Virus record (IMG/VR): IMGVR_UViG_3300049740_000279
Span: 1 to 37,074 of that record
From: a virus
Strand: one strand, 5' to 3'
DNA length: 37,074 bases
Part shown: positions 9,212 through 28,204 of the stretch, in pieces
Position numbering within the stretch: position 1 is the stretch's first letter
Layout of the letters: every line of letters starts with the position of its first letter
Program-made: the position numbers and the translations under genes
Notes under the pieces: model-generated
Told to the model about the DNA's origin: nothing
Database searches by the model: none
What the model saw: only the letters and a program-made list of their open reading frames with translations

Positions 9212-9240
9212 ATAATAACATCAAAAACTAAACTTGTCAA
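9212..9240 (-). promoter_or_regulatory. Sigma-70-like promoter
   Basis: TTGACA (9240-9235), 17 nt, TATTAT (9217-9212), about 30 nt before ATG 9183. It begins 1 nt after the TAG stop of the ClpP-like gene. Confidence 0.86.
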
Positions 9241-9241
9241 C

Positions 9242-9805
9242 CTATAATATTTCGTCGGCTATACCAAGATCAACCAATTGTTTGGCTGTGTAGTATTGAT
9301 CACTTGGATTTTTGATGAATTTGGTGTTTACTTCTTGGATAGTCATACCCGTTGCTTCACGTAGTATTTGCATACATCTCATTTCACAGTTTTTATTCTC
9401 TTTCATCTGTGCTTTCATATCATGCATTTTGGCATCCATGTTGTCGCTGTGTTGATGATTCATTATACCTGTGTTCTTACCAATCCAACGATATCCTTTT
9501 GTACCACTTGCAAATAGCATAAATCCTGCACTCATAATAGCACCTACGCCTACTGTGCTTATGTTGTGATAACTATTCTTCATTACATCAATAAGAGCAA
9601 ACATCTCATAGAGATCTCCGCCTGTAGTGTTAATATAAAGTTCAAGTGTTCTTTTGGGCTTTTTTGTTAGGTTAGCACTAAGGATCCATTTAATTGTTTC
9701 ACCTACATTTTCACCTGTAAGTTCTCCATTCAGATAGTGTATGTCGTTATCTAATAACGATCGTTCTACTGCATCTGAGCTATTCCAATTATCGTATTTA
9801 GGCAT
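9242..9805 (-). CDS. clpP: ClpP-like serine protease (S14 family)
   Basis: 187 residues with the ClpP catalytic triad in normal spacing: Ser92 in AIMSAGFML, His117 in IMNHQHS and Asp169 in NPSDQYYTAKQLVDLGIADEI. LELYINTTGGDLYEMFALID is the oxyanion-loop and substrate-strand region. It could assemble as a host-type degradation barrel with ClpA/ClpX, or act in virion assembly as some S14 proteases do. A perfect TATAAATA lies 15 nt before the ATG, so late expression is likely; no clear Shine-Dalgarno is present. The window also holds ClpS and Hsp20. Confidence 0.92.
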   Translation of the reverse strand: MPKYDNWNSSDAVERSLLDNDIHYLNGELTGENVGETIKWILSANLTKKPKRTLELYINTTGGDLYEMFALIDVMKNSYHNISTVGVGAIMSAGFMLFASGTKGYRWIGKNTGIMNHQHSDNMDAKMHDMKAQMKENKNCEMRCMQILREATGMTIQEVNTKFIKNPSDQYYTAKQLVDLGIADEIL

Positions 9806-9820
9806 AATTTATTATATACG

Positions 9821-9828
9821 TATTTATA
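9821..9828 (-). promoter_or_regulatory. T4-type late promoter TATAAATA
   Basis: Perfect TATAAATA on the minus strand, 15 nt before the ATG of the ClpP-like gene. A start about 6 nt downstream would leave a leader of only ~9 nt. Confidence 0.7.
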
Positions 9829-10300
9829 CCTGAGTCCATTGCAAGTGGCCTAGGTTTCTACTTTCAGCCCATCTTACAAATAACCCAACTTCTCTGCCAT
9901 GTGCATCAATTTCCCATGGTAGGTCAAAATAGTGGTATTTTGTACGGTTGTAACGCTTACCCTTCCAATTTACTATATCAGTATCAGATTGTAAATCACG
10001 CATTTCGCCTGTAGCAAATTGCTTTACATGTACTAACTCGTGACACAATGTTTCAATAATAGTACGTTTATCTTGGGTTGGGTCAATTTCAATAGTGAAT
10101 TCTTTTGGACGTACATAATCATCTTCCCAAATACAGTTACCGCATTGGCGTGATGCTTCAAATAGTCCTGGTATAAATTTAACAGTAATATCAAGATTTT
10201 CTTGTAGGCGTTTGCTCATTAATAATGAACAGCAGAAATTAACTACATCGATAGCGTATTCTTTTTCAAAATCCGATGCACCTCTAAGTTTGATTCTCAT
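9824..10300 (-). CDS. SprT-like zinc metallopeptidase
   Basis: 158 residues from ATG 10300; this start is preferred over a TTG five codons upstream because GAGAGGA lies between them as the ribosome site. The zinc-binding HELVH is at 87-91 with a downstream acidic ligand in PWEIDAHGRE (Glu130), the arrangement of SprT-type peptidases found in many marine phages. CGNCIW (53-58) gives a Cys pair. The family cuts DNA-bound proteins in eukaryotes (SPRTN); the phage role is unknown. Its own consensus promoter is at 10327-10355. Confidence 0.85.
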   Translation of the reverse strand: MRIKLRGASDFEKEYAIDVVNFCCSLLMSKRLQENLDITVKFIPGLFEASRQCGNCIWEDDYVRPKEFTIEIDPTQDKRTIIETLCHELVHVKQFATGEMRDLQSDTDIVNWKGKRYNRTKYHYFDLPWEIDAHGREVGLFVRWAESRNLGHLQWTQV

Positions 10301-10326
10301 ACCTATTCCTCTCAACGTTTGTATAT

Positions 10327-10355
10327 ATTATACACTCGTTAGTAAGTAATGTCAA
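10327..10355 (-). promoter_or_regulatory. Strong sigma-70-like promoter
   Basis: TTGACA (10355-10350), 17 nt, TATAAT (10332-10327), 27 nt before ATG 10300. The -35 contains the TGA stop of the gene at 10352-10540. Confidence 0.88.
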
Positions 10356-10540
10356 CCTTTTTCGTAAGGGCTTCTATCATGGTATATGTCGCCTGCTAAT
10401 GCTTGAAGGTTTTCAATATTAGCTTGTATTAGTACTTGGTCTTTTGGTGCCGGGCTTTCATACTTTAACTTGTAAAGTTCTTGTGATACTTTGTGCATGG
10501 CATCTACTTTTGCACACAAATCGCTAATCTTATGTAACAT
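10352..10540 (-). CDS. Small helical protein, unknown
   Basis: 62 residues, largely helical (MLHKISDLCAKVDAMHKVSQELYKL, then QANIENLQALAGDIY). Likely a coiled-coil or helical-bundle accessory protein; no family recognised. Own promoter at 10594-10622. Confidence 0.65.
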   Translation of the reverse strand: MLHKISDLCAKVDAMHKVSQELYKLKYESPAPKDQVLIQANIENLQALAGDIYHDRSPYEKG

Positions 10541-10593
10541 ACATGTCCTTTCGGTTAGTTCCTGTTAAAAATACTTATCAACAGTATATAATA

Positions 10594-10622
10594 AATATAC
10601 TATAAACTGGAGGCAAAGTCAA
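10594..10622 (-). promoter_or_regulatory. Sigma-70-like promoter facing away from the plus-strand gene
   Basis: TTGACT (10622-10617), 17 nt, TATATT (10599-10594). It overlaps the Shine-Dalgarno (GGAGG, 10609-10613) and abuts the TTG start of the divergent gene at 10624. Confidence 0.75.
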
Positions 10623-10623
10623 G

Positions 10624-10986
10624 TTGGAAATTTTTCTATTATTAATGCTCAAACACGCTATTGTAGATTTGGGCTTTCAGCCTTTTGGTTTAGGAGCAAC
10701 CAAATTAAGATATTTTGGTTGGGCGGCACATCAACAACATTATATTCCACATGGTTTACTAACTATGGTCGCACTTGCAATGACCTTGCAAGGGTCCTTA
10801 GAGCTTATTATACTGTTGGGAATACTTGATTACGTACTACACTGGCATACCGACTACATTAAGACCCATATAAGAGAAAAGATGCAATGGAAGTCAAACC
10901 AAAGAGCATTTTGGGTACTGAACATGTTTGATCAGATGGTACACTTCTTTGGATATTATATAATTGTTAGATTAGCTATTGGTTAA
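10624..10986 (+). CDS. DUF3307-like polytopic membrane protein
   Basis: 120 residues, one of only two plus-strand genes. TTG start with GGAGG 10 nt upstream; the next ATG (10648) would cut into the first hydrophobic segment. Hydrophobic segments lie at ~2-20, ~42-60, ~58-75 and ~100-118, with conserved-looking His/Asp positions: LKHAIVDLGFQ, PHGLLTMV, LDYVLHWHTDYIK, FDQMVHFFGYY. This H/D-in-membrane pattern resembles DUF3307 proteins, seen in phages and bacteria and of unknown role. Its TAA overlaps the stop of the converging gene at 10983. Confidence 0.78.
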   Translation: MEIFLLLMLKHAIVDLGFQPFGLGATKLRYFGWAAHQQHYIPHGLLTMVALAMTLQGSLELIILLGILDYVLHWHTDYIKTHIREKMQWKSNQRAFWVLNMFDQMVHFFGYYIIVRLAIG

Positions 10987-12575
10987 GTTTTAATCATTCT
11001 ACCAAATCCAAAACTCATTGAACCTGGTAATGCCATAGTAGCATAAAACTCTTTGCCCGAATCAAATCTAATTTGTCCTTCAAACACTGGTGGATAAATG
11101 ACAGCCATTTTAGTAAACTTACCTTTATCATCACCTTGCATTTGGAATGAACTTTTAATTTGAATCATGTTAGAACTTTCAAGTACTGTTTTAAAGAACC
11201 TGTTTAACATTTCTGGGTTTTTGTTCATTGCATTCTGTGTTGCTTTTGCAAGAACTGTTGTCCAATGCCATAGCTTCTTGTACTTGGCATTGTTAATAGA
11301 TGAATCCTTAGGACGATATGTGTCTGAATTCATATATGAATTGTAGTGTCTTGGTAGTGCTTTACTAATAGCACCTTCGTCATTCCATGTATTAGGATCG
11401 TTAACTAAACCTTTAACTGCTTCTAATTCAGTTTCATTTAAAATTCCAACTGATGCCGCAAGTTTATAAATTTGATGTTTCTTATCTTTCTCTTTAATGA
11501 TGTTCATCCAAGAAAGGTATTCTGCAAACTCTTCAAAGAATTTAGGATTAGCCTTTTTAAGCTGATCTGGTTTGTTGTCAATAGTTTCTGCAATACTAAT
11601 TGCACTTGCTTTTGCACCACCCTTACCGTCTTTAGCACTAATACCAACTCTAGTTCCTTTAGGTGATATTAAAAAGCTATCAATAAGTTTCTGTGTTTCG
11701 TCTGCAGGGTAATCAACTGTTTTCATTGCACCCCATGTCAACCCTGGCTCTAGTACCTGTAAAAGATTTTCTTCAGCTTCTTTTACACTACCTGTTACGA
11801 TGCTAGACCCTTGTGATAACGCAATAGGCCCTGCTATCTCACCAATCTGTACTTCGTAGTTTCCTTTATAGTCTTTAGTAGCAGGCATTACTTCATCTAA
11901 GTTATCAATTATGTCTGCAACAATTTTTCTTTCTTCTGCCGGCACATCATCTGGATACAATGTTGATGTTCTAATTGCGTTAGCAACTGCGTCAACTTGC
12001 ATTGGTCCATTAGTAACACCTAGTCTGTTTGGAAACATTCTAATGTTAGGGTGTGCTTTGTTTGAGTTCTTTGCTTTAGTTTTAACAATGTCAAAACCTA
12101 ATGGAGCAATGTTTCTCATAAAATCTGTTTGTTCCCATTTGATGTAATTACTAGTTTTTTGTTTATAGTATCTTACAAAATGGAGTGTTCCTGAGTCTGT
12201 AGTAATTTCAACAACAATAGCCGCAAATGGACCTAATGGTTGTTTGTTTACTTCTTTTAAGTCTGCTGTTGCTACACCGGCTGTTGCTAAATCGTTTTGG
12301 AATTGTTCTGCTGGTGTTTCGCTCTTTGGTCCTACTGCTGAACCGTTTTGTGCATCAGCTGGATCAGTTGATTGTTGTGCTTCTACTGGAACGTATTGTG
12401 CTTGACTAGCCTCTAAAGGAAAGAACCAACTATTAGAAGGGATAAACTTACCACCTTCTTTAGTACTAAAAGGACTTTCCATTCCTTTGTCGTTAACATC
12501 GTCTACTGCACCTTTGATGCCTCTAGTGCTTTCAATGACTGGCTTATTGTATTTTTTAAACTCGAAGAATCTCAT
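10983..12575 (-). CDS. Large late phage protein, unknown
   Basis: 530 residues with no family I recognise. N-terminus MRFFEFKKYNKPVIES, then a Gln/Ala/Pro-rich low-complexity linker (~50-100) and a long mixed alpha/beta body. The segment with GEIAGPIALSQG (~246-257) and RVGISAKDGKGGAKAS (~310-325) has an E...xSxKxG look that occurs in some restriction-endonuclease-like folds; this is a weak hint only. A perfect TATAAATA 8 nt before the ATG suggests late expression and a virion-related or packaged protein. There is no Shine-Dalgarno, so it may be leaderless. Confidence 0.78.
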   Translation of the reverse strand: MRFFEFKKYNKPVIESTRGIKGAVDDVNDKGMESPFSTKEGGKFIPSNSWFFPLEASQAQYVPVEAQQSTDPADAQNGSAVGPKSETPAEQFQNDLATAGVATADLKEVNKQPLGPFAAIVVEITTDSGTLHFVRYYKQKTSNYIKWEQTDFMRNIAPLGFDIVKTKAKNSNKAHPNIRMFPNRLGVTNGPMQVDAVANAIRTSTLYPDDVPAEERKIVADIIDNLDEVMPATKDYKGNYEVQIGEIAGPIALSQGSSIVTGSVKEAEENLLQVLEPGLTWGAMKTVDYPADETQKLIDSFLISPKGTRVGISAKDGKGGAKASAISIAETIDNKPDQLKKANPKFFEEFAEYLSWMNIIKEKDKKHQIYKLAASVGILNETELEAVKGLVNDPNTWNDEGAISKALPRHYNSYMNSDTYRPKDSSINNAKYKKLWHWTTVLAKATQNAMNKNPEMLNRFFKTVLESSNMIQIKSSFQMQGDDKGKFTKMAVIYPPVFEGQIRFDSGKEFYATMALPGSMSFGFGRMIKT

Positions 12576-12583
12576 AACACTAG

Positions 12584-12591
12584 TATTTATA
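12584..12591 (-). promoter_or_regulatory. T4-type late promoter TATAAATA
   Basis: Perfect TATAAATA on the minus strand; it contains the TAA stop (12589-12587) of the bilin reductase and sits 8 nt before ATG 12575. Confidence 0.7.
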
Positions 12592-13282
12592 CTATTTTAG
12601 GAAACAGAGCATCTGCACAAAACTCATCAACATCAGCTTCAGGTAATCCTAAAGACTTCATTGTACGTGGCGTATGTGGGTTTTGTTGCTGGTTATGACA
12701 GTAATAGTTCTGTGCTCCAGCGGTAAGTTCAATATTAGCATTGCCTGTATACTGAGGAACACTTTCAAACCATGTTCTTAAGTTATCTACTGCTAGGTCG
12801 CATATTGCAGTAGCTTCTTCTACTGTGTTTACATTACCAGCGGCAATCATACTTGGACTAAAAATATTACGAGCCCATTCAGGTAGTTCACGTTTCTTAC
12901 TTGGAATAAAGTCTGCAACTGCATCTTGATACCAATCAACTAACGGATGGTCTTCTCCACCACTACTTGCACTAAAGTCATGGAAAGCACCTGTCATCTT
13001 GTTCTTACCTGCAATAACATCAAAGCCGTATATAGGAGCATCGTTAGTTAGTGTAGGAAAACAACATACATGCATCATCCATAAGCCTTTGCTATCACGT
13101 ACATCAACTACATCAATGTGAGCTCTGCGTACATGCGGATTAGCCCATACTTTATTAAGCCATCCATTCTCTGGTTGGTGAAATTTGTTTAGTGTTTTTT
13201 CTTCTTTCTCAACTGCAAACTCATCAAAAATACCAAGTATACGATCCTGTGTTTCAATTAGTTTATTCCATATTACGCTCAT
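12587..13282 (-). CDS. pcyX: Ferredoxin-dependent bilin reductase (PcyX/PebS-like)
   Basis: Reduces biliverdin IX-alpha, the product of heme oxygenase, toward a phycobilin using electrons from ferredoxin. 231 residues, the usual family length. RRAHIDVVD, MMHVCCFPTLTNDAP, YGFDVIAG and the C-terminal NYYCHNQQQNPHTPRTM are the family core. His71 and Asp88 correspond to catalytic His88 and Asp105 of cyanobacterial PcyA; the PcyA Glu76 position is Asp57. Viral members without a cyanobacterial host (PcyX) and the cyanophage PebS make phycoerythrobilin; which of these this is cannot be told by eye. Coupled to the halogenase by a 4-nt overlap (ATGA). Confidence 0.88.
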   Translation of the reverse strand: MSVIWNKLIETQDRILGIFDEFAVEKEEKTLNKFHQPENGWLNKVWANPHVRRAHIDVVDVRDSKGLWMMHVCCFPTLTNDAPIYGFDVIAGKNKMTGAFHDFSASSGGEDHPLVDWYQDAVADFIPSKKRELPEWARNIFSPSMIAAGNVNTVEEATAICDLAVDNLRTWFESVPQYTGNANIELTAGAQNYYCHNQQQNPHTPRTMKSLGLPEADVDEFCADALFPKIV

Positions 13283-14772
13283 CTATTACTCCACTCTCTG
13301 TTAGATATACCTGGCATTGATTCCCTTAATTCAACTTCGTGCATACTTTTAATTATGTCAATTGCGTTTTGTTTTTTAATTTTTGGTGTTGCTGGATTAA
13401 TGCCTGTAGCATGTAGCCATAACTTCCAGTTAGTTTCTGCAAATATTTCCGTGTTACGTGGAAAGAACTGCGATTCGTCTAGTGTTGGGGTATACGTTCT
13501 TGCATACCCTGTTGCCAATTCTTCTAGCTTAGGTGTTTCTTTAAAGTTTTCGTAAACGTGTTTCCAAAACTTACCTTGTCTTGGATTATTAAAGTAGTGC
13601 AATGCTACAAAGTTCATGCTATCTTCGTATACTGTTTCAATGTCGTTATTATAACCATCTACATCTTCTTGTGTAAAATGTCCTTTTTGTAAACATCTAA
13701 GTCCAGTAGCACCAATGATTAGTAATGCAAGTCCTGTACTTTCTAATGGCTCAATAAATCCACTAGCAAGTCCTACACTAAAACAATTACCTCTCCAATT
13801 CTTTCTATTATACTTAGGCTCAAACGGTATGTGGTTAAACTTACCTGTACGTAGTCTATGTTCTCCCCAATGTTGTACAAAGTGATCTTCTGCTTCTTGT
13901 TTAGTTGTTAGGTCACTGTTGTAACATAGCCCACTACCTATTCTATCTCTAACAGGAGTTTTCCATATCCAACCTAGGTCAGTTGCTTGTGCAGTAACAT
14001 AAGGTACTTGTGGTTCGTCATCTGTTTCGTAATCAATTTGACTTGCAACCGCGGCATTAGTAAACAGCATATGACTTCTGTCAACCCAGTCTGCACCTGG
14101 TATTGCGTTTGATAATAGTTTCTTAAATCCTGTACAGTCAACAAAGAAGTCAGCAACAAGTTCTTGTCCATCTTCTAATATAACTTTTTCAACTTGACAT
14201 TTATTAATTACAGGCTTACTAATATGTTTTTTAATGTGTGTTAGTTTAGTATACTTTTTGTTTAGATATTCTGATAAGAAGTTTGCAAGTTTGATAGCAT
14301 CTAAATGATATCCTACATGAGCGTTGCCGCCTTTAACACTTGTGTTCTCTGGAACAACGTTGTTTGTAATACAAGTGTTGTACCATGACATGTACGTTTC
14401 CATATCAGTTTGTGTAGCACCAGCATCAAGAGCTAAGTTTACAATGTCGCCCATGTGTCCTTCGTCACTAGTACCTACTGGAAAATAAAACGGTTGCCAA
14501 ATATTTGTATTGTCGCCTTTCCAATTAGGAAAGTATGTTCCGCATTTAATAGTTGCGTCTGATGCCTTGGTCCATAACTCCATTGGAATGCCACAGTCTT
14601 TTAAGTAATGGTCAAAGCCTAGTATAGTTGCTTCACCTACTCCTACTGTTGGAATGTTAGGACTTTCTACAAGGGTAACGTTTACGTTGGGTAAGTTATA
14701 TAAAGCATAAGCGGCTGTCATCCAACCTGCTGTGCCACCTCCAACAATACAAATACTTGATACGTTAGTCAT
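13279..14772 (-). CDS. Flavin-dependent (tryptophan-type) halogenase
   Basis: 497 residues. FAD-binding GGGTAGW at 11-17; catalytic lysine position Lys76 in IKCGTYFPNW (PrnA Lys79); GWIWKTP (267-273), a variant of the WxWxIP halogenase signature; and EPLESTG (341-347) whose Glu344-Ser345 match the PrnA Glu346-Ser347 chloride/catalytic site. The family oxidises chloride or bromide with FADH2 and O2 and halogenates tryptophan or other electron-rich rings; a separate flavin reductase is needed. It overlaps heme oxygenase (8 nt) and bilin reductase (4 nt), which makes a pyrrole, bilin or heme-derived substrate worth considering, although no biochemical evidence exists for that here. Confidence 0.9.
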   Translation of the reverse strand: MTNVSSICIVGGGTAGWMTAAYALYNLPNVNVTLVESPNIPTVGVGEATILGFDHYLKDCGIPMELWTKASDATIKCGTYFPNWKGDNTNIWQPFYFPVGTSDEGHMGDIVNLALDAGATQTDMETYMSWYNTCITNNVVPENTSVKGGNAHVGYHLDAIKLANFLSEYLNKKYTKLTHIKKHISKPVINKCQVEKVILEDGQELVADFFVDCTGFKKLLSNAIPGADWVDRSHMLFTNAAVASQIDYETDDEPQVPYVTAQATDLGWIWKTPVRDRIGSGLCYNSDLTTKQEAEDHFVQHWGEHRLRTGKFNHIPFEPKYNRKNWRGNCFSVGLASGFIEPLESTGLALLIIGATGLRCLQKGHFTQEDVDGYNNDIETVYEDSMNFVALHYFNNPRQGKFWKHVYENFKETPKLEELATGYARTYTPTLDESQFFPRNTEIFAETNWKLWLHATGINPATPKIKKQNAIDIIKSMHEVELRESMPGISNREWSNR

Positions 14773-15313
14773 TGCGTTCGTGTTCCATCATTTCCTTAAA
14801 TGCCTTAGTTGCAAAGTCAAAACATATTTTAGCTTCGTCAGCCAACTCGTCGTGTATCTTTGCTCTAATCTTTGTTTTAAGGTCGTTGACTTCTCCATCG
14901 AACTCGTACATAGTTCCTTTGCCAGGAACTTTCTTCTTAATCATTTGACCACCACTTAGGTCGCCCATATGCCTAACATACAAGTGAGCCATAATTTTTT
15001 CTTTATCGTCTTTAATAGACATAATGTGATCGGTGTATTCTTTTGTTACGTTTAATAACGTTGGCGTATTATCTTTATCTTCCCATAGTTCTTCATAGTC
15101 TGCAAAGATACGAGGTGCTCTACGCACTTCAGGAATGTCGTCGAACAATCCATGTGTCATAGCAATTACTTCTAATAGGTTATAACACGGGTGTTGATTG
15201 AATAAAAATGTAGCATAAGTCTCAGGGCTAATATCTCCGCCCATTAAGACTTTTACAAATTCTTGTCTTTCTGCGTTCTTATGATGTTCCCAAGTAAGGT
15301 CTTTTAAGCTCAT
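14765..15313 (-). CDS. ho1: Heme oxygenase
   Basis: Opens heme to biliverdin IX-alpha, CO and Fe(II) using reduced ferredoxin and O2. 182 residues. Proximal His11 lies in WEHHKNAE (the HxxAE pattern), and the distal-helix signature GDLSGGQ occurs within RHMGDLSGGQMIKKK (~113-127). LFNQHPCYNLLEVI is a typical helix. ATG at 15313 overlaps the ClpS stop (ATGA) and the 3' end overlaps the halogenase start. It supplies the substrate for the bilin reductase two genes on, as in cyanophage ho1-pebS cassettes. Confidence 0.94.
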   Translation of the reverse strand: MSLKDLTWEHHKNAERQEFVKVLMGGDISPETYATFLFNQHPCYNLLEVIAMTHGLFDDIPEVRRAPRIFADYEELWEDKDNTPTLLNVTKEYTDHIMSIKDDKEKIMAHLYVRHMGDLSGGQMIKKKVPGKGTMYEFDGEVNDLKTKIRAKIHDELADEAKICFDFATKAFKEMMEHERND

Positions 15314-15621
15314 TCTTGCTCCACTTTGATTTGTAATGGAAATCCATGACTTCTACTCAAAGTGGTTGCTTCTACGGCTTTCTGTTCTGCTATTTCAAAG
15401 TTGTAAATACCAACTACAGACGAGCCTTGCTCGTGTATCTCCATAGTTATATCTCTAGCAGTATCTGGCGAATGCCTAAAAATTCCAGTAAGTATCTCAA
15501 TCACGAAATCCATTGGGGTTGCGTTATCATTGAGGAAGATTACTTTATACATATTTGGTTCAGTAACCTTAATCTTGATCTTTTCGTCTATTTCTACGTC
15601 CATACTATTACTTATCATCAT
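15310..15621 (-). CDS. clpS: ClpS, adaptor for N-degron proteolysis
   Basis: 103 residues. The ClpS core is clear: YKVIFLNDNATPMDFVIEIL (binding-pocket Asn-Asp and Met), SPDTARDITMEIHEQGSSVVGIY and FPLQIKVEQ. ClpS delivers proteins with bulky N-terminal residues to ClpA-ClpP. GGAG precedes ATG 15621 (a second ATG follows at once). First of the overlapping clpS - heme oxygenase - halogenase - bilin reductase unit; no -35/-10 pair is obvious, so it may be co-transcribed with Hsp20 through the hairpin at 15643-15666. Confidence 0.93.
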   Translation of the reverse strand: MMISNSMDVEIDEKIKIKVTEPNMYKVIFLNDNATPMDFVIEILTGIFRHSPDTARDITMEIHEQGSSVVGIYNFEIAEQKAVEATTLSRSHGFPLQIKVEQE

Positions 15622-15673: not shown

Positions 15674-16132
15674 TTACTTACTGTCGATAACTGAATTATC
15701 TACAATCTTAATCTTCTTTGGTTGTAGTTCTTCTGGTACATTACGTTTTAAGTGTACATTAAGCATACCTAGTTCAAGGCCTGCACTTTCTACTTCAACG
15801 TGGTCAGCAAGTGTGAACTCTCTACGGAAGTTGCGTCCGCCAATACCCTTGTGTAGGTAATTAACTTCGTCATCTCCTTTAGGAGCAGTCCCTTCAATAC
15901 GTAACATCTTTCCATCTTTTTCGATTTCTAAGTTGTCCATGCCAAATCCTGCAACTGCTAATGAGATCATATACTCATCTTCGTTGATTTGTGCAATGTT
16001 GTATGGGGGATAACCATTTCCGTTAGGGCTATTAGCAAACTGTCTTTCAAGTTCGGTAAACATTTGGTCGAAGCCAATTGTTGCTCTGTGGAAGTGTGGT
16101 AGGTCTAGAGTTGTTAGTCTTTGTCTTGTCAT
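15674..16132 (-). CDS. hsp20: Hsp20/alpha-crystallin small heat-shock protein
   Basis: 152 residues from ATG 16132, preferred over an upstream codon because AAGGAGA precedes it. N-terminal FHRATIGFDQMFTELE and YPPYNI, then the alpha-crystallin domain (~45-135) with YMISLAVAGFGMDNLEIEKDGKMLRIEG, GIGGRNFRREFTLADHVEV and GLELGMLNVHLKRNVPEE, an exact match to the IbpA-type layout. It holds unfolding proteins for refolding and is common in T4-like cyanophages. About 100 nt upstream contains GATAAATA (16222-16229), suggesting late expression. Confidence 0.94.
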   Translation of the reverse strand: MTRQRLTTLDLPHFHRATIGFDQMFTELERQFANSPNGNGYPPYNIAQINEDEYMISLAVAGFGMDNLEIEKDGKMLRIEGTAPKGDDEVNYLHKGIGGRNFRREFTLADHVEVESAGLELGMLNVHLKRNVPEELQPKKIKIVDNSVIDSK

Positions 16133-16221
16133 TTTGTTTCTCCTTATAATAAGCAAGATTTATATTACGATGTTCCTTTTGGACACATCATGTACATTGA
16201 GCTCTTCTCTTTGTACACATT

Positions 16222-23154: not shown

Positions 23155-24210
23155 TTACTGATACGGGTCAACATCCAAATACTTGCCCCATTCTGAATAG
23201 TAATGACGCATACCTACTTCATCATGTATAGTTCCATTTTCATGTCTACCATGTAATATGTTACGTGCTTCTGTACCTTCACGCATTGTAGTACCTTGTC
23301 CTGCTACACCAATTAGGTCTTCATGTAGGTTACGTCCGAACGGTCCCCATATGCTGTTGTGATGTTTGATACGTGTTAGTCTTTCTTCAGGTGTATCCTT
23401 ACGCAGTCCATAACCTCTAAACTCAATAAGAACTTTGTTACAACTTAGGGGAGTAACTGAATCACTACGGTAGGCGGAGCCTCGAAGGTTGAAGTTGAAT
23501 CCAGGGAACAGATCGACCATGTACCATTGATTGGGTGGCAAGTTTGGGAATGATAATTCTCCTCTATCTTCAAAGCCTTCGTACTCCTCATAGTTGACAG
23601 TAAAACTAGACACATTAACATGCCCATTATCAAAAGGTATATTCTTACGTGCGAAGTACTCATCATTGAACCCACTTACTCTATTGAAGTAGTGCATGAA
23701 GTCGTGATAGAATTCACTATTGGTATCATGCCATAACTTATAATTGGTATTTATAATTGCTTTGTGATAATGAAACACTTCCATTTCTTCTGTGTCAATA
23801 GCATCAGCAATACAATCAAATGCACCTGCTGTCCATTCCTCAACACTCTGCGTTGGATTAGGATCAAGTGTTACCCATACCATGCCTCCGTGCTTTACTT
23901 CACAATGCAACTGTGGTTCAACAGTTACAATAGGTGCTCCAAGAGTACCACTAGGTGCCCAACTGCCATAGTTACGATATGCTCGAACACCATCGCCTGT
24001 GTTGTATGCAATAACATTAACACCTGCTATCTGTGTTGTTCGGTAGTCTAGTTTGTTATACATCTCAGAGATGTGGCACATAGGTACCCATACTTTACTA
24101 AAGATACGTTCTTGCTCTTGTGCAAATATTTCTGGATCGTTATATGCTGAACTGCTGATTGATTCTACGTTTGGTTGTGCTAACCAACTCTTATGATTAC
24201 GTGGTGGCAT
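23155..24210 (-). CDS. Rieske-type ring-hydroxylating oxygenase alpha-subunit lacking the Rieske ligands
   Basis: 351 residues. The N-terminal ~120 have the strand order of a Rieske domain (IFSKVWVPMCHISEM, GVNVIAYNTGDGVRAYRNYG, GGMVWVTLDP), but CxH...CxxH is gone: NYGSWAPSG stands where NVCRHRG is expected, and only LHCEVKHGG (101-109) is left near the second pair. The catalytic domain keeps NTNYKLWHDTNSEFYHDFMHY with Glu166, His169 and His173 as the iron-site candidates and Asp298 in LHEDLIGVAGQG as the third ligand. So it may be a mononuclear-iron enzyme with another electron route, or a repurposed protein. An intact reading frame argues against a pseudogene. Confidence 0.82.
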   Translation of the reverse strand: MPPRNHKSWLAQPNVESISSSAYNDPEIFAQEQERIFSKVWVPMCHISEMYNKLDYRTTQIAGVNVIAYNTGDGVRAYRNYGSWAPSGTLGAPIVTVEPQLHCEVKHGGMVWVTLDPNPTQSVEEWTAGAFDCIADAIDTEEMEVFHYHKAIINTNYKLWHDTNSEFYHDFMHYFNRVSGFNDEYFARKNIPFDNGHVNVSSFTVNYEEYEGFEDRGELSFPNLPPNQWYMVDLFPGFNFNLRGSAYRSDSVTPLSCNKVLIEFRGYGLRKDTPEERLTRIKHHNSIWGPFGRNLHEDLIGVAGQGTTMREGTEARNILHGRHENGTIHDEVGMRHYYSEWGKYLDVDPYQ

Positions 24211-25908: not shown

Positions 25909-25977
25909 AATTATCTCCTATTGTGTTTAACACGCTTTTATTTACTATCATAGCATTTAAGGCGTGTTAAATGTGGT

Positions 25978-27051
25978 TTAGAATTTATATTTCACAGATC
26001 CCAGGATTGATGTTGTATCAGCATAATCTGCACCAGTGATAGTTGATGTTCCACTCTTATCGTGTAGATATAAACCAATCTCTAATCCATCTTGCTTATC
26101 AGCACGTTTGCCAGCGTCATAGTTAGCATACACGTTATGAACAACACCGTAATAGTTACCATCGTAACCTAAGTCATCATTCATAGTTCTATGAGCAGTA
26201 ACATAAGTTGCTGGAGTAACATTATACATTACACCCATATCAATTCTGTCATCACTTGCAAGACCTGTGTCTTTGTCGTCCCACAACTCAACACCCCATT
26301 GCATTGGGATATCCCATCTACGAAGTGTTCCGCCAATAGCGTATCCTTCTTGACGAGTGTCTGTTGTGTAACTTGCTGAACCTGCCGCAGTTGTGTCAAT
26401 GATCATGTATGATACATCAGCTAAACCTAATAAGCTAACTGTTGCACTTGCATACAATGAGTCTTCGTTGTTATCGTAACCAACAACTACACCCCATGGC
26501 TTTTCTCTTTTAAGTCTGTACGCATCAAATTCGAATTCAGTTTCTTTTTCAAATCCGCCTAATACTAAAACAGTCTTTTCATTGTGATCCAACCTACTAC
26601 TTGATTCAGTAATGATAATTGGTGCTCCAATCTTTGATGTTTTTGCAAAGCCAATGCGTTGTGCATCAGTTTCACCAACATAGATTGTTGCGAAGTCATT
26701 ACCAAAACCTAATTGCTTTTCAACAATAGTATTGTCAAGAGTACTATCTAATGCATAATCACTATCATACGTCATAGTTGCACCAACCCAGTTAAGGTTA
26801 AGCATGTTCTTGTCAATATCTAAGTCTTGGCTAATACCAACTTGCAATTCAGCACGTGAGTCCCAACCAGAGTCATAAGTTTTATCGTCATATATACCCT
26901 CAATTTCACCATTGACATAAAGTCCAGCTGGTAAATTTGGCATACTACTTTCAAGGGCCTGTACTCTACTTTCGAGACCTGCATCGTCAGCCAAGGTTCC
27001 TGTCGCAAGAGTTGCGAACAAGACGGCTAACACCATCGTTACTTTTTTCAT
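25978..27051 (-). CDS. Outer-membrane porin with signal peptide
   Basis: 357 residues. A Sec signal (MKKVTMVLAVLFATLATGTLA) precedes a short coiled-coil segment (GLESRVQALESSMPNLPAG), then alternating amphipathic strands typical of a beta-barrel (LYVNGEIEGIYDD, LQVGISQDLDI, NLNWVGATMTYDSD, FATIYVGETDA, GVVVGYDNNEDSLYASATVSL, ...) and a C-terminal VKYKF ending in Phe, the BamA recognition feature. Phages carrying porins are known (e.g. lambdoid nmpC/lc type). Possible roles are altered nutrient entry or masking of the phage receptor. Upstream has a late-like CATAAATA (27122-27115) and a TATAAT (27083-27078). Confidence 0.86.
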   Translation of the reverse strand: MKKVTMVLAVLFATLATGTLADDAGLESRVQALESSMPNLPAGLYVNGEIEGIYDDKTYDSGWDSRAELQVGISQDLDIDKNMLNLNWVGATMTYDSDYALDSTLDNTIVEKQLGFGNDFATIYVGETDAQRIGFAKTSKIGAPIIITESSSRLDHNEKTVLVLGGFEKETEFEFDAYRLKREKPWGVVVGYDNNEDSLYASATVSLLGLADVSYMIIDTTAAGSASYTTDTRQEGYAIGGTLRRWDIPMQWGVELWDDKDTGLASDDRIDMGVMYNVTPATYVTAHRTMNDDLGYDGNYYGVVHNVYANYDAGKRADKQDGLEIGLYLHDKSGTSTITGADYADTTSILGSVKYKF

Positions 27052-27086
27052 TTTATTTTATTATATCCTTATCTATATTATAACAT

Positions 27087-27108
27087 AAAAAGACTCCGGG
27101 AGAGTCTT
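27087..27108 (-). terminator. Rho-independent terminator after the PAAR gene
   Basis: 7-bp stem AAGACTC (27090-27096) with GAGTCTT (27102-27108), 5-nt loop, followed on the minus strand by T5 (27091-27087). It separates the tail operon from the porin gene. Confidence 0.85.
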
Positions 27109-27154
27109 CGAGCTTATTTATGCTATCTTTGAGTGCATTTATCTTTAAAGTGGT

Positions 27155-28204
27155 TTAACTAGTAGCATATCCATTAGCTTTTAAGGTCTGTTGTGCCCAT
27201 GGATATTTTGGTAGGCCAGTTCTACTTCCATTGGAACCCCAAGCCACTTTTGCACCTCTAATATCAATGTGCGTAAATGTATTGTATATGCCAATTGCAG
27301 TAAACCCTGCGTCAATAGCCGCTTGAATGAACTTTTGACGTTGTGCTGTTGTTAGTCCTGTCTGAACAATGTCGACAGCATTTCCTAACATGTGTTGACT
27401 TTTCTTAGATCCACCAACTCTTGAATTGTATTCTGGACTTCTATATCCACTAGTACAAACTAATTGGAAACCCATCTCTCTAGATATTCTTTCTAAGCCT
27501 GTTACAACTTGTGGTTTCACTCTACTGTCAACGTGTGGTAACCATTTAATAAATTGTCCATCTGCATTTGATGGTTGTTTACTTGGAACTTCTTCAACTA
27601 ACTCTCCATCTGACGATGAACTTGCTGGAGCCGGTTGTGGTCCTGCTGTATTTGTTACTCCGGATTCTCCACCTGTAAGTACAGGACTTTCATTACCACG
27701 TCTAGCAGTTGGAATACCACCATCGCCATATTCTACTGCTTCTGTTGTATCTGGATCAACTCCGTTATCTCTTTCAATCTTACGACCAATAATAATGTCT
27801 GCGGCTTCTACTGGATCAAGTGTAACCTTTTCAAAGCCCATTGCTTGTGCAACTACGTTACCTATTGCGTTCGCTTGTTCTTCTGCTGTTGCTTGTGGAT
27901 CACCTGCTACGTCTGTACTACCTGTAACAATAACTGCCTTGTAAGGAGCGTCTGTATCAATTACATCACCAATCCTTGCTGTAAGTAACTCATTAGTAAT
28001 GTCTATTGTTGATCCTGTTATAATTTTACCTATATGCCCACAGTCAGTTTCAACTAGGTCTCCTAGTCTTGCTGTAGGAATGTTGTTAGTAAACACGTTC
28101 GGACTACCTGTTATAATAGTACCACCAATGTCTAAAGGTGGATGACTAGGATGATAACAAGTACCTTGTGTCCTGTCGCCAATTCTTGCTATTGGTTGTC
28201 CCAT
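27155..28204 (-). CDS. PAAR-repeat tail-tip protein fused to an M15 peptidoglycan peptidase
   Basis: 349 residues. The N-terminus (~1-100) has three PAAR-like repeats (ARIGDRT...GGTIITGSPNVF; ARLGDLVETDCGHIGKIITGS; ARIGDVIDTD...VIVTGS), which form the cone that tips a contractile-tail spike. A Pro/Ser/Ala-rich linker (~180-215) leads to a D-Ala-D-Ala-type peptidase domain: SGYRSPEYNSRVGG, SQHMLGNAVDI (H271, D278) and FTHIDIR (H312) are the zinc ligands. It would pierce the outer membrane and cut peptidoglycan stems during entry. Follows, 0 nt apart, two genes with shared terminal modules. Confidence 0.92.
   Translation of the reverse strand: MGQPIARIGDRTQGTCYHPSHPPLDIGGTIITGSPNVFTNNIPTARLGDLVETDCGHIGKIITGSTIDITNELLTARIGDVIDTDAPYKAVIVTGSTDVAGDPQATAEEQANAIGNVVAQAMGFEKVTLDPVEAADIIIGRKIERDNGVDPDTTEAVEYGDGGIPTARRGNESPVLTGGESGVTNTAGPQPAPASSSSDGELVEEVPSKQPSNADGQFIKWLPHVDSRVKPQVVTGLERISREMGFQLVCTSGYRSPEYNSRVGGSKKSQHMLGNAVDIVQTGLTTAQRQKFIQAAIDAGFTAIGIYNTFTHIDIRGAKVAWGSNGSRTGLPKYPWAQQTLKANGYATS

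Follow-up and report, generated by a model that had tools for sequence, protein, structure and literature searches.

The marine phage hemO-pcyX cassette (Ledermann et al., 2016; described in PMC11480375), in which heme oxygenase (HO) stands beside PcyX in uncultured aquatic phages, has been joined by valaS as a third gene, and Asp55, at the position of PcyA Glu76, has been identified as a PcyX-specific catalytic residue (PMC11480375). In the cultured marine Pelagibacter phage Mosig EXVC030M, ho and pcyX overlap, and its PcyX is 52% identical to the protein considered here. Why phages should have ho and pcyX is puzzling, especially where photosynthesis genes are lacking. Halogenases of family PF04820 are likewise known from viruses; VirX1 of cyanophage Syn10 (PDB 6qgm) retains the catalytic Lys and Glu and carries Tyr in place of the indole-stacking His. 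Here, we describe a phage operon that carries a halogenase gene between ho and pcyX.

The window, i.e., the whole stretch of DNA analyzed, spans positions 1–37,074 of the 37,074-base virus record IMGVR_UViG_3300049740_000279 (Table 1). The genes clpS, ho, hal, and pcyX form one minus-strand run with successive overlaps of 4, 8, and 4 nt; this four-gene order, with its positions and overlaps, was reported in a first-pass annotation and is borne out by the open reading frame coordinates and Pfam families. No valaS was identified in the examined part of the window. The ribonucleotide reductase is nearest to those of T4-like cyanophages (69%), and PcyX is nearest to that of a Pelagibacter phage. 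Elsewhere in the window, a minus-strand gene (23155–24210) encodes a ring-hydroxylating oxygenase-like protein that matches the catalytic domain PF00848 only; inspection by eye shows no CxH...CxxH Rieske ligands, YRNYGSWAPSG standing in their place.

Table 1. Genes of the operon and related genes in the same region of the window.
Gene	Product	Positions	Strand	Matches
clpS	Clp protease adaptor (N-degron recognin)	15310–15621	(-)	Pfam ClpS PF02617 6.5e-28; PDB ClpS 4yjm 4.7e-21
ho	heme oxygenase, 182 aa	14765–15313	(-)	Pfam Heme_oxygenase PF01126 2.7e-19; PDB HO matches
hal	flavin-dependent halogenase, 497 aa	13279–14772	(-)	Pfam Trp_halogenase PF04820 3.2e-93; PDB Thal/RebH/PrnA/VirX1 matches
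pcyX	ferredoxin-dependent bilin reductase (phycoerythrobilin synthase type)	12587–13282	(-)	Pfam Fe_bilin_red 2e-15; PDB 5owg 5e-79
hsp20	small heat-shock gene, directly upstream of clpS	15674–16156	(-)	PF00011 2.3e-14
clpP-like	phage protease, same region	9242–9805	(-)	PF00574 1.9e-26

IMG/VR was searched with halogenase, PcyX, and HO queries, and the neighborhoods were then sorted by a gene-order script, revealing hsp20-clpS-ho-pcyX as a widespread order. ClpS and Hsp20 belong to the ho-pcyX cassette in general: among 83 distinct cassettes, 77 have clpS immediately upstream of ho, 75 have hsp20 upstream of clpS, and 44 have ho and pcyX adjacent without an insert. Thirteen of the 83, found on 24 IMG/VR contigs, have a halogenase gene between ho and pcyX, and these 13 distinct halogenases are down to 49% identical to the window protein. 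Their codons point to purifying selection: dN/dS of unsaturated pairs stays well under 1 (0.09–0.30 for halogenases against the window type, among the pairs listed). Because 24 contigs show it and its 13 distinct halogenases are under such selection, the arrangement is far beyond chance, and clpS-ho-hal-pcyX is supported as a real, recurring operon. Chance or an assembly artefact as the source of the gene order is thereby ruled out, and the search of viral collections that had been proposed as a check shows that the order is not confined to one genome. The co-occurrence of halogenase and ho, also proposed for checking, holds in one direction: the halogenases of this clade found here all lie between ho and pcyX, whereas 70 of the 83 cassettes have no halogenase. 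Conversely, no ho or bilin reductase gene was found near other halogenase loci (viral L185–L248 and the 80 bacterial loci L249–L328; 5–6 kb flanks where the contig allowed).

Further genes occupy the same junction. In a second phage group, four phages carry ho-hal-pcyX, and in three of these the halogenase is followed by a CN-hydrolase gene; inserts in further phages include CN-hydrolase, a 2OG-oxygenase-like protein, a second HO, and proteins of 60 to 90 aa. The CN-hydrolase (PF00795), which has relatives in Prochlorococcus phage P-SSM2 (39%), appears as ho-hal-nit-pcyX at loci L032, L033, and L036 and as ho-nit-pcyX at L107, L115, and L121; at L031 (1129–3923), two different heme oxygenases flank a CN-hydrolase and are followed by an open reading frame resembling 2OG oxygenases and then pcyX. 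In many cassettes, among them L054, L057, L067, L072, L112, L128, and L137, the gene between ho and pcyX codes for a conserved protein of 60 to 90 aa (KDFPGNLIKIKVLEDEI...HDTGHIYTTID). The larger inserts are enzymes and could serve in bilin tailoring. Halogenase genes also occur in other settings: the record of L024 (G014) has ho-pcyX without a halogenase and three other PF04820 genes elsewhere (9231–12069 and 25939–27180), and in marine viral contigs L186, L190, L191, and L198, halogenase genes number two to four per contig, several being arranged in tandem and overlapping by 4 nt.

The flanking enzymes have the residues expected of their families. HO carries the proximal His (H11) and a GDLSGGQ motif, corresponding to the proximal His and GDLSGG distal helix of the HO-1 type, and H11 and D118 are kept in all 83 distinct cassettes. 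Among ferredoxin-dependent bilin reductases, the closest to the window protein is PcyX (5owg, 5e-79, versus 1e-12 for PcyA); its D57, H71, and D88 align with PcyA E76, H88, and D105 and are invariant in 83/83 cassettes, D57 coinciding with the PcyX-specific Asp55 in a register inferred from the 5owg chain. These results support the PebS/PcyX-type bilin pathway suggested by the first-pass annotation and identify the reductase as PcyX, so that conversion of heme to phycoerythrobilin would be the expected base pathway of the operon. Across the 83 cassettes, no residue of HO or PcyX is fixed differently according to halogenase presence, and co-adaptation of either enzyme to the halogenase was dropped as an explanation. 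ClpS contains the N-degron pocket motif of its family as LNDNATPM, in which Asn takes the place of the second Asp and the pocket His is kept, and the ClpP-like protease is a possible partner. The idea that ClpS ties pigment formation to proteolysis gained no support: ClpS is present in almost every ho-pcyX cassette, whether or not a halogenase is there, and nothing links it to pigment chemistry.

Neither a ferredoxin nor a flavin-reductase gene was found in 16 related phage records, possibly fragments, and the same possibly incomplete records yielded no photosystem II reaction-centre (psbA), phycobiliprotein, or phytochrome domain. A phage-encoded electron-transfer partner of either kind and a cyanophage photosynthesis context were therefore both dropped, and the absence of these genes suggests that the host provides electrons and any bilin-binding protein.

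The operon halogenase has the FAD motif GGGTAGW (GGGxxG), and its K76 and E344-S345 match K79 and E346-S347 of PrnA, so that the GxGxxG motif and catalytic Lys and Glu of PF04820 halogenases are all present; Lys76 and Glu344 are invariant across the clade. The motif and both residues, as first annotated, are thus confirmed. The PrnA and RebH reference sequences are identical to their PDB chains, and residue roles are assigned after these structures. An AlphaFold2 model from 82 sequences (pLDDT 93.6), which replaced an earlier model from 13 sequences (pLDDT 68), gave Thal, PrnA, and RebH as the best PDB matches in Foldseek (TM 0.83–0.88 by query length; Thal TMq 0.87), and the Trp-halogenase fold is predicted with high confidence. 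The operon halogenases form a single clade with SH-aLRT 100, set off by a long stem (0.73) and placed among viral and not bacterial relatives. On the clpS+ho+pcyX tree, halogenase presence falls in two supported groups and needs two changes; the gene was therefore moved or lost at least once.

The substrate pocket differs from that of the tryptophan halogenases. The indole-stacking His (PrnA 101, RebH 109), which 133 of 140 other halogenases retain, is replaced in 13/13 operon members (Q in 9, S in 2, A in 1, and E in 1; Q93 in the window protein). Also gone from the clade are the Trp of PrnA 118 and the Ile of PrnA 82 and 276; position 82 has become T79, close to the catalytic Lys, and WxWxIP reads WxWxTP in all 13 (WIWKTP in the window, with both Trp and the Pro kept). 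Nor is the free-Trp clamp (PrnA Y443, Y444, E450, F454, and W455) kept, Y443 and Y444 being mostly Phe and W455 being F or Y, in an alignment that is gapped across this region and less sure at single positions, e.g., R439 at the place of PrnA E450. Since the C-terminal clamp is also absent from many other viral and bacterial halogenases, the clade-specific signal is loss of the stacking His, which argues for a changed substrate. The indole sandwich (His/Phe/Trp) and Tyr-Tyr-Glu clamp of free L-tryptophan halogenases are thus not found here, and with stacking His and clamp lost in 13/13, free tryptophan is an unlikely substrate. Clade-specific basic residues include R306, R308, R327, and R439. 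In all likelihood, the halogenase is an active flavin enzyme, and its pocket is of a non-tryptophan kind.

The explanation that we favor, and to which we give roughly even credence as a whole, combines a bilin cassette with an auxiliary halogenase. HO would open heme to biliverdin, which PcyX would reduce to phycoerythrobilin with host ferredoxin. The halogenase, of single origin, would have been acquired at the ho/pcyX junction in one T4-like phage lineage and retained since, being co-read from the same message via overlapping start and stop codons. Its chemistry would be the standard use of FADH2, O2, and halide, with a HOX tunnel and the Lys/Glu pair, fed by a host flavin reductase, and its substrate would most likely be an aromatic compound that is neither free L-tryptophan nor a bilin. 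A counterpoint is that halogenases of the clade were never found outside the ho/pcyX junction and that all 13 records searched that carry one have a single copy, located in the operon; this could mean a tie to the pathway, and vertical descent explains it too. The larger junction inserts, as enzymes that could tailor bilins, are a second counterpoint.

A tie of the halogenase to the pathway is the core of the best-surviving alternative, unlikely though far from negligible, in which the halogenase acts on biliverdin, phycoerythrobilin, or heme, between or after the HO and PcyX steps, to give a halogenated linear tetrapyrrole. The strict, overlapping position in 13/13 distinct operons, the clade-specific remodelling of the pocket, and its basic residues fit this reading; the lack of halogenase-linked residues in HO and PcyX, the many cassettes without halogenase, and the insertion of unrelated genes at the same junction count against it, and halogenated bilins were not found in the open literature. 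We know of no natural product class of halogenated linear tetrapyrroles. For the same reasons, the halogenated bilin first proposed for this operon is possible and unsupported, and it is rather doubtful that phages make such a compound during infection by halogenating a heme-derived bilin between HO and PcyX. Less probable is that the halogenase fold now serves a flavin enzyme hydroxylating or oxidizing its substrate without halogenation, the role presumed for QhpG-type relatives. A weak NCBIfam match to QhpG and LodB, the WxWxTP form of the motif, and T79 close to the catalytic Lys point in this direction; against it, Lys76 and Glu344, required for halogenation, are invariant in the clade. 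Finally, an ordinary free-tryptophan halogenase working in parallel with heme breakdown, also raised in the first-pass annotation, is improbable, for despite the family assignment, the retained catalytic pair, and Trp 6-/7-halogenases as best solved relatives, the Trp-binding residues are missing and identity to Trp halogenases is ~26–27%.

A halogenase that has stayed in the middle of this operon despite deep divergence, and whose pocket has been remodelled, offers a directly testable handle on the purpose of ho and pcyX; as a viral enzyme whose pocket is of a new type, it may also be of use for biocatalysis. A literature search mostly limited to open-access papers returned nothing relevant on a halogenase with pelagiphage, bilin, or clpS, in agreement with the initial impression that no system with this set had been described. 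Among known halogenases, PrnA, RebH, and Thal share the fold and halogenation machinery, but their free-Trp binding residues are not conserved in the operon clade (~26% identity); VirX1 is closer (~30%) and differs in having Tyr where the clade has Q, S, A, or E, and cyanophage halogenases, including VirX1 in Syn10, have unrelated gene surroundings and do not lie beside bilin genes. The Mosig EXVC030M region has no halogenase or clpS, its upstream genes being 2OG oxygenases and ferrochelatase. Compared with the marine phage hemO-pcyX cassette, with which it shares the catalytic residues, the operon has a halogenase between the two genes and is led by clpS and hsp20; so far as the open literature shows, this recurring form of the phage ho-pcyX cassette has not been described before.
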